From positions 62,001 through 126,000 of the forward strand of contig CALKCP010000014.1 in assembly GCA_938083445.1 (NCBI GenBank): a stretch of 64,000 bases of DNA. Reading direction: 5' to 3'. The translations under genes were made by a program, and so were the position numbers. The notes beneath the pieces are model-generated. The model was not told the origin of the DNA, ran no database searches, and worked only from the letters and a program-made list of their open reading frames with translations. This document shows positions 25,147-31,619 of the stretch, piece after piece (position 1 is the stretch's first letter; every line of letters starts with the position of its first letter). The DNA is from an uncultured Ulvibacter sp. (GTDB taxonomy: Bacteria > Bacteroidota > Bacteroidia > Flavobacteriales > Flavobacteriaceae).

Positions 25147-27924
25147 TTATATTTTCTCTCTTAAATAGGGAGCTGTAATAGATTTAATGCTTTTTGCAAC
25201 TTCTTCAGGGGTGCCCTGAGCAATTACTTCTCCGCCCCGAATTCCGCCTTCAATTCCTAGATCAATAATATGATCGGCACATTTAACTAGGTCCATATTG
25301 TGTTCAACAACAACGACCGTGTGGCCTTTGTCAAGCAAGGCATAAAAGGAAGCTAAAAGCTTCTTGATATCATGAAAGTGCAAACCGGTGGTAGGTTCGT
25401 CAAAAATAAACAAGGCCTTTTCTTTCGTAGTACCTTTTAAAAGAAATGAAGCTAATTTAATACGTTGTGCTTCTCCACCAGATAACGTAGAAGAGCTTTG
25501 ACCGAGTTGTACATACCCCAAACCAACATCCTGCAGTGGCTTTAGTTTGTTGGTAATTCTCTTTTCACCCTGTAGGTCGAAGAATCCAATTGCATCATCC
25601 ACGGTCATGGTTAGAATATCATGAATATTCTTCTCATGAAATTTCACTTCTAAGGTTTCCTTTTTAAAGCGCCTTCCATGACAGGTGTCACAAGTTAAAT
25701 GCACATCGGCCATAAATTGCATTTCAATAGTAACTTCGCCATCTCCTTTGCAATTTTCACATCTTCCACCGTCCACGTTAAATGAGAAATGTTTTGGTTT
25801 GTATGCACGAATCTCGGATAACTTCTGTGAAGCAAAGAGGTTCCGAATATCGTCATATGCCTTGATGTAGGTAACCGGATTCGACCTACTAGAACGGCCT
25901 ATGGGATTTTGGTCAATAAATTCAACACTTTTAATTGTCTCAAAATTCCCTTCTAAGGAGGTAAACTGTCCAGGTTTTGAACCATAGCCTCCTATTTCTC
26001 GAAGCAACGCTGGGTATAATATTTTCTTGACGAGGGTGCTTTTTCCACTTCCTGAAACACCAGTTACCGCTGTAAATACTCCTAGCGGAAAACGAGCATT
26101 AATATTTTTCAGATTGTTTTGACGAGCTCCAATAACATCTATACTCTTTGTCCAAGACCTTCTTTTCTTCGGTACTGAAATTTCTAAGGTGCCATTTAAG
26201 TAGTCGGCCGTTAATGAATTGGATTTTAATATTTCAGTATAAGATCCAGTAGCAACAACCTCGCCTCCAAAAGTACCCGCTTCTGGCCCGATATCTATAA
26301 TTTCATCGGCTGCCTTCATAATATCTTCATCATGCTCCACAACAATAACGGTGTTACCGAGTTTTTGAAGCGATTTTAAGACATCTATTAGCCGTTCTGT
26401 ATCTTTTGGATGTAATCCAATACTAGGTTCGTCTAGTATATACATAGAGCCTACCAAACTACTTCCTAATGATGTTGCAAGGTTAATACGCTGAGACTCT
26501 CCTCCCGATAGTGTGTTGGATTTACGATTTAATGTTAAGTAACTAAGCCCCACGTTCATTAAGAAAGAAAGACGGTTGTTTATTTCAATTAGCAACCTTT
26601 TTGCAACGACTTTGTCATATTTGTTGAGTTTCAGATTACTGAAAAAAGACGCCACTTCATCCAAAGGCAATGCTACTAACTCCTGTATTGATATGCCTCC
26701 CACTTTAACATATGCGGCTTCTGGCCGGAGTCTTCTTCCTTCACAAACGCTACATTTTGTTTTACCCCGATAGCGTGATAACATGACCCGATTCTGAATT
26801 TTGTAATTTTTTGACTCCAGACCCTTGAAGAAGGTATTGAGTCCGTCAAAAAAATTATTTCCAGACCAAACCAATTCCTTTTGCTCTTCAGACAGTTCAA
26901 ACCATGGCTTATGAATCGGAAAATTAAATTTATATGCGTTATTGACTAACTGATCTCTGTACCAGCTCATACTTTCACCACGCCAGGGGTAGATTGCATT
27001 ATCGTATATCGAAAGTCCTGTGTTGGGAACGACTAGACCTGCATCAATTCCAATGACATCGCCGTAGCCTTCACAATTGGGACAGGCACCAAAGGGATTG
27101 TTAAAACTAAATAAGTGCTGGTTTGGTTCTACAAAACTAAGTCCATCGGCTTCAAATCGATTGTTAAATCCTGTGATTTGTTCATTGGCTAGATCTTCAA
27201 TAAACAGTTCTCCTTTACCTTCAAAAAAGGCCATTTGAATGGCGTCGGCCAAACGATTGTAAAAATCTTCATCGTCAAGAGTGATAACTCTATCAATTAC
27301 AAGTGCTATTTTATCGTTCGATGAAAGCACCTTCACTTCATCAATCCTCATCACCTCACTATTTAATTTTACTCTAGAATAGCCCTGTTGTGCAAGCGCA
27401 TTCAATTTGTTTTCCATGCTTCTACCTTCCTCTAAGTGGATAGGAGCAAGGAGTAGGAGTTTGCTTCTTAATTGAAATTCTTTGATAAAGACAACAACAT
27501 CAGTAACTGTGTCTTTTTTAACTTCTCGACCAGAAACAGGTGATATGGTTTTACCAATTCTCGTAAATAAAAGTTTCAGATAATCATAGATTTCTGTCGA
27601 TGTACCAACTGTGGAACGCGGATTCGTTGAATTTACTTTTTGTTCAATGGCAATAGCAGGGGAGATGCCCTTAATGGAATCTACTTTAGGCTTATCCAAT
27701 TTACCTAGAAACTGTCTGGCATATGACGAAAGGCTTTCTACATATCTCCGCTGACCTTCTGCGTATAATGTATCAAATGCTAAAGTTGATTTTCCACTAC
27801 CCGAAAGGCCTGTTATAACGACCAATTTGTTTCTTGGAATAACAACCGAGATGTTTTTTAGGTTGTGCAACCTAGCCCCTCGAATTACAATGTTTTTTTT
27901 AATGTCTATGTTTTCGATATCCAA
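25147..27924 (-). CDS. uvrA: excinuclease ABC subunit A
   Basis: DNA-damage recognition ATPase of nucleotide excision repair, about 925 aa. It contains two ABC modules: Walker [10 protein letters not shown] near residue 40 and GVSGSGKST in the second half, signatures LSGGESQR and LSGGEAQR, and Walker B segments MYILDEP and LFIFDEP. Zinc-binding cysteine pairs CPNC, CSVC, CENC and CDTC are intact. A TTG at 27954 overlaps the -7 element at 27952-27959 and would lie before the transcript start, so the next in-frame TTG at 27924 is the likelier start, although this leaves a non-ATG codon. The gene stands alone, with no uvrB or uvrC nearby. Confidence 0.93.
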
Positions 27925-27951
27925 TTTTCGACTTGTTTTAATCCAATTTTG

Positions 27952-27959
27952 CAAAGATA
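27952..27959 (-). promoter_or_regulatory. -7 promoter element of uvrA
   Basis: On the minus strand TATCTTTG exactly matches TAnnTTTG. No TTG is seen at the proper distance upstream. It would start a transcript near 27945, about 20 nt before the TTG chosen as the uvrA start. Confidence 0.5.
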
Positions 27960-28177: not shown

Positions 28178-28762
28178 ATGAAAAAAATCACAAACAGTGA
28201 TGCGCTATTAGTAAGCGCATATATCGGAGGCGATGAATCTGCTATTTCAGCGTTAGTTACTCGACACAAACAAAGAATCTTCAGTTTTATATATTCCAAA
28301 GTATACGACCGTGATATCACGGAGGATATTTTTCAAGATACCTTTATAAAGGTCATTAGAACTCTAAAAAGAGGGGCATATAATGAGGAAGGCAAATTTT
28401 TGCCATGGGTCATGCGAATTGCACATAATTTGGTAATCGATCATTTCAGAAAGAATAATAGAATGCCAAAATTTGAAAACACAGGTGATTTCAATATCTT
28501 TTCTGTGTTATCAGACTCCTCGTTGAATGCTGAAAAAAGCATGATAAAAGGGCAGGTGGAAAGCGATGTGAGGCGCTTAATTGAAGAGCTTCCTGACGAT
28601 CAAAAAACGGTCCTCTTAATGCGAATATATAGAGACATGAGTTTTAAAGAAATTAGTGAACAAACGGGTGTTAGTATAAATACTGCCTTGGGTCGAATGC
28701 GCTACGCACTAATTAACTTACGTAAGGTAATTGATAAGCATAATATTATATTGACAAATTGA
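28178..28762 (+). CDS. ECF-type RNA polymerase sigma factor
   Basis: Sigma-70 family protein of 194 aa with only regions 2 and 4. Region 2 spans about residues 22-95 (ITEDIFQDTFIKVIRTL, then LPWVMRIAHNLVIDHFRK) and region 4 about 128-185 (LPDDQKTVLLMRIYRDMSF, then EISEQTGVSINTALGRM). No anti-sigma factor gene with a membrane segment follows. The next gene, 57 bp downstream, encodes a 50-aa soluble peptide. Which regulon it drives is not visible. The N-terminus begins at the ATG at 28178 after an A-run; no clear promoter was found in the 223-bp upstream gap. Confidence 0.9.
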   Translation: MKKITNSDALLVSAYIGGDESAISALVTRHKQRIFSFIYSKVYDRDITEDIFQDTFIKVIRTLKRGAYNEEGKFLPWVMRIAHNLVIDHFRKNNRMPKFENTGDFNIFSVLSDSSLNAEKSMIKGQVESDVRRLIEELPDDQKTVLLMRIYRDMSFKEISEQTGVSINTALGRMRYALINLRKVIDKHNIILTN

Positions 28763-29025: not shown

Positions 29026-29685
29026 TTACTTTCTTTTGTTTTTAAAATAGGCGTCTATTACCGTTTTTCTTCCTATTGTTTTCGTTATAATGTCCTTATC
29101 CAAGTCCCATGCTCTAGCTGGAGAATATTGCCGCCCATACCAAATGATTTGAAGGTGTAGGCTATTCCAAAGTTCTTCTGGAAATAATCTTTTCGCATCT
29201 TTTTCAGTTTGCACCACGTTCTTCCCGTTCGTGAGCCCCCAACGATACATCAACCTGTGAATGTGCGTGTCTACTGGGAATGCTGGAATATTAAATGCTT
29301 GCGACATAACGACACTCGCTGTTTTATGTCCAACCGCTGGAAAAGATTCTAGGGCCTCAAAGCTAGCCGGAACGACACCCTTATATTTTTCTATTAGAAT
29401 TTTTGACAGGCCATAAATACCTTTTGACTTCATAGGTGATAATCCGACGGGTTTAATAATCTCTCGAATTTCTTCAATAGATAATTTCACCATATCGTAG
29501 GGATTATCGGCAATTTCAAACAAAAGTGGTGTTATTTTATTTACGCGTACATCAGTACTTTGGGCAGAAAGCAATACGGCAATAAGCAATGTATAAGGAT
29601 CCTTGTGATCTAATGGAATAGGGATTTCTGGATATAACTCTTCTAAGGTGTTAATGACGAAGTTTACCTTTTCTTTTTTGGTCAT
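29026..29685 (-). CDS. nth: endonuclease III-like DNA glycosylase lacking the Fe-S cluster
   Basis: A 219-aa HhH-GPD DNA glycosylase/AP lyase. The helix-hairpin-helix is SFPAVGHKTASVV, with catalytic Lys121, and the catalytic Asp139 lies in VDTHIHR. It would remove oxidised pyrimidines in base excision repair. Classical endonuclease III ends in a CX6CX2CX5C loop binding a [4Fe-4S] cluster; here the corresponding end (YGRQYSPARAWDLDKDI) has none, and the whole protein has no cysteine. The fold must be held without the cluster. The gene is divergent from bcp, with only 30 bp between start codons. Confidence 0.88.
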   Translation of the reverse strand: MTKKEKVNFVINTLEELYPEIPIPLDHKDPYTLLIAVLLSAQSTDVRVNKITPLLFEIADNPYDMVKLSIEEIREIIKPVGLSPMKSKGIYGLSKILIEKYKGVVPASFEALESFPAVGHKTASVVMSQAFNIPAFPVDTHIHRLMYRWGLTNGKNVVQTEKDAKRLFPEELWNSLHLQIIWYGRQYSPARAWDLDKDIITKTIGRKTVIDAYFKNKRK

Positions 29686-29715
29686 TTTGATTACTTTTAT
29701 ACAAAAATAAGCTAA

Positions 29716-30168
29716 ATGAACACATTACAAGTAGGAGACAAAGTACCAAATTTTATTTCTTCAGATCAACATGGAAATACAGTGGCATTGTCAGATTTTA
29801 AAGGGAAGAAGCTCGTGGTGTTTTTTTATCCTGCTGCAAGTACCCCTACGTGTACAGTGGAAGCTTGTAATTTAAGAGATCATTATAAGGAACTTCAGGA
29901 TGCGGGATATGAAATACTTGGGGTGAGCAAAGATACTGAGCGGAAACAGAAAAATTTTAGTGATAAATATAATTTTCCTTTTCCATTGCTTGCTGATACT
30001 GATAGAGAGGTTATCGAGACTTTTGGTGTTTGGGGGACAAAAAAGTTTATGGGACGTGTTTACGATGGCATACACAGGAAATCATTTGTTATAAATGAAG
30101 AGGGGATTGTTTCAAAAGTGATTGACAAAGTGAAGAGCAAAGAACACGCGCGTCAGATCTTAGATTAA
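29716..30168 (+). CDS. bcp: thioredoxin-dependent thiol peroxidase (BCP/PrxQ peroxiredoxin)
   Basis: A 150-aa peroxiredoxin that reduces hydroperoxides using thioredoxin. The peroxidatic Cys46 is in PAASTPTCTVEAC and the resolving Cys51 follows five residues later, the atypical two-Cys layout of BCP. The protein is cytoplasmic with no signal peptide. It is divergent from nth, pairing oxidative DNA repair with peroxide defence, and its TAA stop overlaps the stop of the convergent gene at 30165. TACTTTTA at 29692-29699 in the short shared intergenic region resembles a -7 element. Confidence 0.93.
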   Translation: MNTLQVGDKVPNFISSDQHGNTVALSDFKGKKLVVFFYPAASTPTCTVEACNLRDHYKELQDAGYEILGVSKDTERKQKNFSDKYNFPFPLLADTDREVIETFGVWGTKKFMGRVYDGIHRKSFVINEEGIVSKVIDKVKSKEHARQILD

Positions 30169-31619
30169 CCTTCAATTTTCGTTTTGTTTTCACGATAGCC
30201 GAAAAGTTTTTTATCTCTTATAATTTCTGAAACCCCTTTTGGCAGCATGTCGCCCCAACCTTTTTCACCATTTTCAATCATAGAGAGTACTTTACGAGAG
30301 AAAATATTAAGAATTTCCGGGTTATAGTCAACTATGTCTACCACTTTTCCATTGTATTTGAAGAATTTATAAAGCTCTTTCATACGAGGATGTACCTTAA
30401 GATTTTCACTGTTTGTGTATTTTCCTGTTTCAGGGTTCTTCATAGGATATAAATAAACTTTTAGATCCTTAAAGAATAGTTTTCCAAATGCTTCCAAAAT
30501 TCCACCACTAAGATGACGATAGTATTGCTCGTCAAATATATCAATAAGGTTATTTACACCCATTGCTAGGCCGAGGCGCATTTTCGTGTAGCGTGAAAAG
30601 TATTCTACAACCTTGTAATACTCTTGGAAATTTGATATCATCACCGAATGCCCCAATGAGCATAATAATTTTGCACGATGCATAAAGTCCTCTTCATCAA
30701 TTTCACCCTCAGCGCGCAGATTAGATAATGTAATTTCAAAAATCACCTCTGTGCGATCTTCATCGACCCTGTTTTCGCTGAGAAACATTTTATATGATTT
30801 CTCATACATGTCGATATTAACCTTCGTTACAGGACGAAAACTACCTCTGAAAGCAAGGATGTTTTTTTTGTATAATATCTTAGCTGGAAGAATGTTTCTG
30901 CCATCAGGCCCAAACATTACGGCGTCTGTCATTCCGTTTTTAATAAGCTGCAAACTCATTAAACGGTTATCAATGTTTTCAAACCTTGGACCAGAAAAAT
31001 TAATAGTGTCGATCTCGAGCTTATCTTTATCGATGTGATCATATAAATAGCGAAGAAGCTTGTTTGGCGCATCGAATTTGTAATAGGCACTATATATTAA
31101 GTTTACGCCTAAAATCCCAAGTGTTTTTTGTTGTAAAATAGCATCATTTTCATGAAAACGAATATGTAGGGTTATTTCATTATACTCTTCATTTGGATCT
31201 ACTTGATAGCGAATTCCAACCCAACCGTGACCTTTGTATTTCTTTGCAAAATCAATAGTAGATACAGTATTTGCATAAGTGAAGAACAGTTTGTTTGGAT
31301 GCTTCTCTCGCTTAATGCGCTCTTCTATCAGATTGCTTTCATGATGGAGCATTTTTTTTAACCTAGATTCAGTTACATACCTTCGATCATTCTCAATTCC
31401 ATATATGGCATCACTAAAGTCTTTATCGTATGCAGATACGGTCTTTGCAATGGTTCCTGAAGCTCCACCTGCTCGAAAAAAGTTACGAACCGTTTCTTGA
31501 CCAGCTCCAATTTCAGCAAAGGTTCCGTAGATATTTTCGTTGAGATTTATTCGAAGCGCTTTATTTCTAATGGAGGGAACATCTTCGAATTTCTTATCTC
31601 CTGAAATATATTTAGGCAT
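30165..31619 (-). CDS. large conserved-looking cytoplasmic protein of unknown function
   Basis: A 484-aa soluble protein without signal peptide or membrane segment. Features include an N-terminal NENIYGTFAEIGAGQETVRNF-like start (residues 27-47), a glycine-rich RAGGASGT block at 49-56, WVGIRYQVDP near 131 and RLGLAMGVNNLIDIFDEQYY near residue 345. I recall proteins of this type in Bacteroidetes sometimes carrying the name nicotinate-nucleotide adenylyltransferase, but no HxGH nucleotidyltransferase motif is visible, so I do not accept it. The gene is convergent with bcp, with overlapping stop codons. TACCTTTA on the minus strand at 31655-31648 may be its -7 element. Confidence 0.8.
   Translation of the reverse strand: MPKYISGDKKFEDVPSIRNKALRINLNENIYGTFAEIGAGQETVRNFFRAGGASGTIAKTVSAYDKDFSDAIYGIENDRRYVTESRLKKMLHHESNLIEERIKREKHPNKLFFTYANTVSTIDFAKKYKGHGWVGIRYQVDPNEEYNEITLHIRFHENDAILQQKTLGILGVNLIYSAYYKFDAPNKLLRYLYDHIDKDKLEIDTINFSGPRFENIDNRLMSLQLIKNGMTDAVMFGPDGRNILPAKILYKKNILAFRGSFRPVTKVNIDMYEKSYKMFLSENRVDEDRTEVIFEITLSNLRAEGEIDEEDFMHRAKLLCSLGHSVMISNFQEYYKVVEYFSRYTKMRLGLAMGVNNLIDIFDEQYYRHLSGGILEAFGKLFFKDLKVYLYPMKNPETGKYTNSENLKVHPRMKELYKFFKYNGKVVDIVDYNPEILNIFSRKVLSMIENGEKGWGDMLPKGVSEIIRDKKLFGYRENKTKIEG

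Follow-up and report, generated by a model that had tools for sequence, protein, structure and literature searches.

Can an endonuclease III (EndoIII, Nth) do without its [4Fe-4S] cluster and, if so, by what route was the cluster given up? This question is raised by an nth gene found in the window analysed here, i.e., the whole stretch of 64,000 nucleotides from an uncultured Ulvibacter sp., since its product contains no cysteine at all. In the available part of a review of glycosylase domains, Nth is treated as the prototype cluster protein (PMC9266487), and the EndoIII cluster is held to be essential for DNA binding in an excerpt of a second source (PMC7005299). Whether this cluster serves as a structural strut or as a redox sensor in a search mediated by DNA is a matter of dispute (passages of PMC9266487 and PMC9268735).

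Table 1. Coordinates, strands and basis of the features discussed (positions are those of the window)
Feature	Position	Strand	Basis
nth, endonuclease III without cysteine, 219 aa	29026..29685 (including stop codon)	(-)	ORF, PF00730, TIGR01083, PDB EndoIII match, predicted fold
Catalytic Lys121 codon	29323..29325	(-)	Lys in 198/198 aligned rows
Catalytic Asp139 codon	29269..29271	(-)	Asp in 198/198 aligned rows
Former cluster loop, apparently rebuilt, residues 186-208	29062..29130	(-)	Column counts, pN/pS
bcp/prxQ thiol peroxidase, divergent neighbour	29716..30168	(+)	PRK09437, 192.6 bits, cut-off 140
ECF sigma factor, downstream side of nth	28178..28762	(+)	TIGR02937, 81.8 bits, cut-off 42.9
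uvrA, conserved neighbour	25147..27954	(-)	TIGR00630, 1125.2 bits, cut-off 729.8

The initial annotation had described an EndoIII with an intact catalytic pair but with none of the four cysteines of the [4Fe-4S] loop and no other Cys, and this description holds in all its parts. The reading frame starts with ATG, and the residue count gives zero Cys for the whole product; Lys121 lies in a GHKTA motif and Asp139 in VDTHIHR. The HhH-GPD domain (PF00730) is found at 71.2 bits against a cut-off of 26.2, and the same family matches all 30 members of an alignment (A1) of the window protein and 29 of its 80 best named relatives at E 0.1 or better (L108 was left out, having a stop codon in range). EndIII_4Fe-2S (PF10576), the cluster-loop family, had no match in the window protein or in the other members of A1 and was over its cut-off in both of the canonical Bacteroidia Nth proteins that were tried. 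The top PDB sequence match is an endonuclease III, 1p59 (E 2.1e-41), and the nearest PDB relatives are the EndoIII entries 1p59, 1orn and 2abk; the first is presumably the enzyme of Geobacillus stearothermophilus, and 1orn is likewise taken to be from Geobacillus.

A match was found in 30 of the 31 nearest genomes, a set that includes the window's own; 26 of these were ligand-free, two carried a new motif and two were canonical. The ligand-free loop was also present in 79 of the 80 best named relatives, and 71 of these 80 have no Cys in the whole protein. Most of the named loci are titled Flavobacteriaceae or carry the name of a genus that we place in this family (Aequorivita, Winogradskyella, Aquimarina, Maribacter, Flavobacterium and others), and some are MAGs with broader titles. 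In an even, class-wide draw of 247 genomes, a match was obtained for 245, but in eight it was weak (E 2e-7 or weaker) and resembled that of MutY, leaving ten genomes (these eight and two matchless ones) with no clear Nth. The listed Nth matches of this draw fell into two groups, one at 57 to 100% identity (type II) and one at 43% at most. All loops of the 70 full-length type II genes were read, of which 22 were ligand-free and 48 had the form C-x4-H-x4-C-x2-C (CHCC); a contig-edge piece of 95 aa (L181, 63% identity) looks CHCC by eye. In the low-identity group, all 20 loops examined were of the canonical four-Cys form. The initial annotation had suggested a check of whether the loss is clade-wide; it is so for the nearest genomes and the named relatives but does not extend to the Bacteroidetes as a whole, as the 48 CHCC genes among the 70 demonstrate, the remaining genomes of this draw having an Nth of canonical type or no clear one.

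For a closer view, 176 type II and 22 canonical sequences were aligned in 198 rows, with L181 and L002 (the same gene as L003) omitted. The canonical loop, C-x6-C-x2-C-x5-C (CCCC), is present in 22 of 22 canonical Bacteroidia Nth proteins. In type II, the ligands, counted at Cys188, His193, Cys198 and Cys201, are there all or none: no ligand is left in 125 rows, the complete CHCC set is present in 50, and a single row (L100) retains one, Cys188. The loop classes were set by pattern and counts of the pattern residues are thus partly given by construction, although the all-or-none count is independent of the pattern. That the four positions were gained or lost together fits a shared metal site, to which shared descent contributes as well.

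Within the phylum, type II Nth was seen in the window's class only. When 247 genomes drawn across the phylum were searched with a CHCC protein, the 40 best listed matches were 62 to 77% identical, all of them from this class, and the next stood at 44 to 45%; among the matches listed, down to about E 2e-37, from the 186 genomes of other classes, identity was at most 45% and no type II Nth was seen. Beyond the phylum, the search covered plasmid and viral collections. Of 20 Nth loci examined from other classes, 17 were canonical and three had an odd loop spacing. These three (L206, L209 and L212; family code f91, same phylum, another class) share a loop C-x12-C-x6-C-x-C, which is neither canonical nor CHCC and reads CKARIS...DHPxC...CEC, with a His preceding the second Cys. 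Spread of type II Nth by phage or plasmid was considered and rejected, none being seen in either collection: plasmid matches (200 records with the window query, 207 with the CHCC query) were all below 60% identity and the listed ones at 44% at most; viral contigs gave zero matches to the CHCC protein or motif. The viral contigs held 11 other Nth-like loci, and all seven with a frame reaching the loop have four Cys. A viral structure library yielded nothing beyond distant HhH proteins.

Two further cysteines, Cys43 and Cys80, follow the loop form. In the CHCC form, Cys43 is present in 49 of 50 rows (the remaining one is unreadable) and Cys80 in all 50, and Cys43 also occurs in 22 of 22 canonical proteins. 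In the ligand-free form, they are found in 27 and 29 of 125 rows, respectively, and both are absent in 96. Because Cys43 is universal in the canonical set, the ligand-free rows still bearing Cys43 and Cys80 seem to represent an earlier stage and the Cys-free Flavobacteriaceae a later one, and this pattern suggests that the change ran from CHCC to ligand-free. The two cysteines, which adjoin Gln42 and Leu82, are both present in 76 and both absent in 97 of the 176 type II rows; the exceptions are two rows with Cys80 alone and one that is unreadable at position 43. A coupled loss of the pair was set aside as a candidate, as only two supported independent pairs were available, too few for a test.

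Positions 43 and 80 were masked in a tree of 92 of the 198 rows, which was built from columns 1-185. It parts the type II rows from the canonical ones with full support. Free quick trees scatter the ligand-free rows and need 8 to 10 changes between the CHCC and ligand-free forms, so they do no more than allow a single origin; when the 32 ligand-free rows were forced into one clade, the log-likelihood was 15.27 above that of the free quick tree (p-AU 0.66). A single origin of the ligand-free form is therefore allowed and, on these sequence trees, somewhat favoured. Several independent losses are suggested by the free quick trees, but the one-clade tree scores higher. The route to the ligand-free loop probably passed through a Cys3His intermediate.

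The ligand-free loop does not look like a relic. Ser188, Trp193, Asp198 and Thr201 occupy the ligand columns of the CHCC form, the register of the loop being unchanged. Ser188 is found in 125 of 125 rows (a count partly by construction, as the class pattern asks for it), Ile200 in 124, Asp198 in 119, Thr201 in 118 and Trp193 in 106. Among 79 ligand-free loci, pN/pS was 0.108 in the loop (186-208), 0.136 in the core (1-185) and 0.359 in the tail, these being uncorrected proportions with synonymous sites near saturation. The CHCC rows (n = 50) showed the opposite, with a less constrained loop (0.339) than core (0.262). Hence, the ligand-free loop appears to have been rebuilt without decay, under a constraint at least equal to that of the core. 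The loop value also counts against a decaying pseudogene, and an assembly or frameshift artefact or mere chance is refuted by the relatives, given that the same loop is shared by 79 of the 80 named loci and by 46 further genomes, including the window's own; nothing was found in favour of such explanations, and their probability is negligible.

Another reading is that a metal is still bound by the loop, with other residues as ligands, e.g., Asp198, Thr201 and core histidines. It draws on the conservation of Asp198 and on that of His141, His143 and His177, which are present in 122 to 125 of the 125 ligand-free rows. However, His141 and His177 are equally conserved in the canonical form (22 of 22) and His143 in the CHCC form (50 of 50), so they do not make up a new ligand set, and the column counts of the 125 rows revealed no newly conserved Cys or His in the loop. 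Ser and Trp are poor metal ligands. Binding of a metal by such substitutes is thus very improbable, and the evidence favours the suggestion of the initial annotation, i.e., a glycosylase free of iron-sulfur chemistry, as far as it can be judged from sequence.

The predicted structure agrees with an EndoIII fold. The AlphaFold2 model of the window protein has a mean pLDDT of 89.2, with blocks over residues 181-219 at 80 to 92; the five models ranged from 71.0 to 89.2. In a comparison with 1p59, 213 residues were aligned (model residues 1-216, rmsd 1.9, Z 26.8), and the former cluster loop falls inside this alignment. Since AlphaFold2 likely copies known EndoIII structures, the modelled shape of the loop is weak evidence; the sequence is, by this model, compatible with the fold over its whole length. 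For human MUTYH, a passage of one source describes how Arg241 connects the catalytic Asp236, via Asn238, to the main-chain carbonyl of Cys290, a ligand of the cluster; according to the same passage, EndoIII conserves a network of this kind (PMC12000561). By alignment, the counterparts of Arg241, Asn238, Asp236 and Cys290 in the window protein are Arg144, His141, Asp139 and Ser188, respectively. Cys290 is taken here to be the first cluster ligand of MUTYH. As the bridge runs through a main-chain carbonyl, it could outlast the loss of the cluster, and by analogy Ser188 could keep it in the window protein.

It had been noted in the initial annotation that the true enzyme might be a second, cluster-containing nth elsewhere in the genome. 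None was detected in the 2.3-Mb assembly: a PF00730 search returned two HhH-GPD genes, the window nth and a MutY of 363 aa, and a canonical Bacteroidia Nth query likewise found, besides the window gene, MutY only. At 93.8% completeness, a second Nth could be missing from the assembly. No match to the Fpg/Nei family (PF01149) was found in this genome and, for this reason, Nth may be its sole enzyme for oxidised pyrimidines. The loop of the MutY is C-x6-C-x2-C-x5-C; it reaches only 14.4 of the 20.5 bits needed for PF10576, and its cluster was therefore read from the Cys motif instead. The MutY loop has four cysteines in all 15 genomes examined, and genes of the SufB/D family are present in the window's genome. 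Loss of iron-sulfur assembly was accordingly rejected as a cause: the assembly of clusters itself is retained, the cell should be able to build them, and MutY, by its motif, seems to use one.

It might still be argued that the protein has lost its EndoIII activity or switched its substrate, perhaps as a monofunctional enzyme, and that the work of EndoIII is done by another one. The score of the window protein for the NCBIfam nth equivalog (TIGR01083), 205.2 bits, lies narrowly under the cut-off of 211.7, although two other ligand-free members exceed it (215.9 and 217.9); three CHCC members reached 215.9 to 221.5 and two canonical ones 245.8 and 252.8. The surroundings of the active site are also altered in type II, with His120 for the canonical Arg and His143 for Phe, and when 80 of the 96 type II genomes were searched, six proved to carry a second Nth-like gene. 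In these extra genes (L222-L227, from G250, G223, G044, G187, G094 and G244), DLH replaces DTH and the loop has four Cys. Against such a loss or switch stand the invariance of Lys121 and Asp139 across all 198 rows, the strong purifying selection on ligand-free Nth, the failure to detect either a second Nth or a PF01149 glycosylase in the window's genome, and the fact that the extra gene was not seen in the other 74 of the 80 genomes, among matches listed to about E 5e-14. Moreover, Gln42, Leu82, Gly119, Lys121, Asp139, His141, Arg144 and Arg185 are each present in 125 of 125 ligand-free rows. Gln42 and Leu82 are presumed to be the DNA-inserting positions. Taken together, a loss or switch of activity is judged to be unlikely.

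The neighbourhood of the gene was found to be shared by both type II forms, which fits their orthology. The peroxiredoxin gene that had been described as lying divergently beside nth is a Bcp/PrxQ gene, and the two start codons are 30 nt apart. A divergent bcp within 300 nt upstream occurs in at least 92 of 125 ligand-free and at least 7 of 50 CHCC loci and in 0 of 39 CCCC loci; on the downstream side of nth, the ECF sigma factor gene is in the same arrangement in at least 105 and at least 15, and uvrA in at least 95 and at least 12, of the 125 ligand-free and 50 CHCC loci, respectively (all lower bounds, as the flank length varies among loci). The 30-nt gap contains TATTTTTG at 29702-29709 (-), which we take to fit TAnnTTTG, the Bacteroidota promoter element; nth and bcp may therefore have a very compact common divergent promoter region. 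Upstream of nth and in the same orientation lies the gene of a 484-aa protein (30165-31619, (-)), found in at least 80 of 125 ligand-free loci; it matched no Pfam family over cut-off and no NCBIfam model at E 1e-10.

From this evidence, the window protein is most probably a working, metal-free HhH-GPD glycosylase/AP lyase with a rebuilt loop, and the sole EndoIII detected in its genome. The type II lineage would have swapped the canonical loop for the CHCC loop, a probable zinc site or Cys3His-ligated cluster site, and one branch would then have exchanged all four ligands, with Ser in place of Cys188 and, in most members, Trp in place of His193, Asp in place of Cys198 and Thr in place of Cys201. 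Packing and hydrogen bonds would hold the rebuilt loop in place of the metal. In this state, the loop would keep its structural task of closing the C-terminal subdomain and would support the helix after Asp139 that bears His141 and Arg144, with Lys121 and Asp139 presumably performing the chemistry as in other EndoIII enzymes. The wider proposal has about even chances: one Nth lineage of the Bacteroidia would have passed from a [4Fe-4S] cluster through a Cys3His site, binding zinc or a His-ligated cluster, to no metal in a branch that includes the Flavobacteriaceae, where Ser188, Trp193, Asp198, Ile200 and Thr201 took over, and the three living states would separate the structural from the DNA-mediated redox role of the cluster.

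The series of three states (CCCC, CHCC and ligand-free) makes a larger point than a single Cys-free protein, as these are matched natural proteins on which the role of the cluster can be tested. The Nth of a large bacterial group has no ligands for the cluster, and MutY in the same cells keeps its four Cys residues; should the enzyme prove to work, the role of Nth in repair cannot depend in general on its redox signalling. As reported in part of one source, Cys-to-Ser changes in MutY harm stability, the refolded cluster-free protein was inactive and did not bind DNA, and the C199S variant of DrEndoIII2 was unstable, with comparable activity and redox properties (PMC9268735). Given its redox properties, this variant probably kept its cluster; hence, it sets no precedent for cluster-free activity, and the chemistry tolerates Ser at that ligand. 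A ligand-free Nth, if active, must have overcome both the instability and the loss of DNA binding. Several other glycosylases for oxidised bases are without clusters, and Fpg, Nei and OGG1 are redox-inert, according to an excerpt of the review cited above (PMC9266487); since clusterless MutYs are known as well, the surprise is limited. A loop with a metal-independent fold could also serve as a guide to designing EndoIII reagents that are stable and tolerate oxygen.

No naturally clusterless Nth was found in the largely open-access literature searched. The closest known system is EndoIII itself (2abk of E. coli, 1orn and 1p59), which shares with the window protein the whole-length HhH-GPD fold, the Lys/Asp pair and 35 to 37% identity; it differs in its cluster ligands, whereas the window protein has neither these nor any cysteine, falls under the NCBIfam cut-off and is without PF10576. 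Clusterless MutYs are already in print (PMC11078426, citing Trasvina-Arenas 2016, in the part available), and a structure so titled (8uuc) was among the fold-search matches. Like the window protein, they are HhH glycosylases that have dropped the [4Fe-4S] cluster of their relatives, but they form a MutY subfamily with another substrate; in the window's genome, the loss is in Nth and MutY keeps its four Cys. The window protein scores only 24.7 bits for TIGR01084 (cut-off 286.5), and the C-terminal NUDIX-like domain (NUDIX_4) that is present in the MutY of the same genome is absent from its 219 residues. MagIII is not known to bind a cluster, and a carbamylated lysine lies at that site. This Helicobacter protein is, in the excerpt available, assigned to the EndoIII family as a 3-methyladenine glycosylase (PMC6467930). 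Its structures (1pu6, 1pu7) share 15% identity over 185 residues with the window protein, at a fold Z of 16.7, and H. pylori MagIII was not among the PDB sequence matches at E 0.001; MagIII acts in alkylation repair, while the window protein keeps the Lys/Asp pair of EndoIII. Finally, the zinc linchpin of MUTYH is a Cys3His zinc site in an HhH glycosylase (passage of PMC12938805), which gives the CHCC form a precedent in chemical terms, although it is located in the mammalian interdomain connector and not in the cluster loop.
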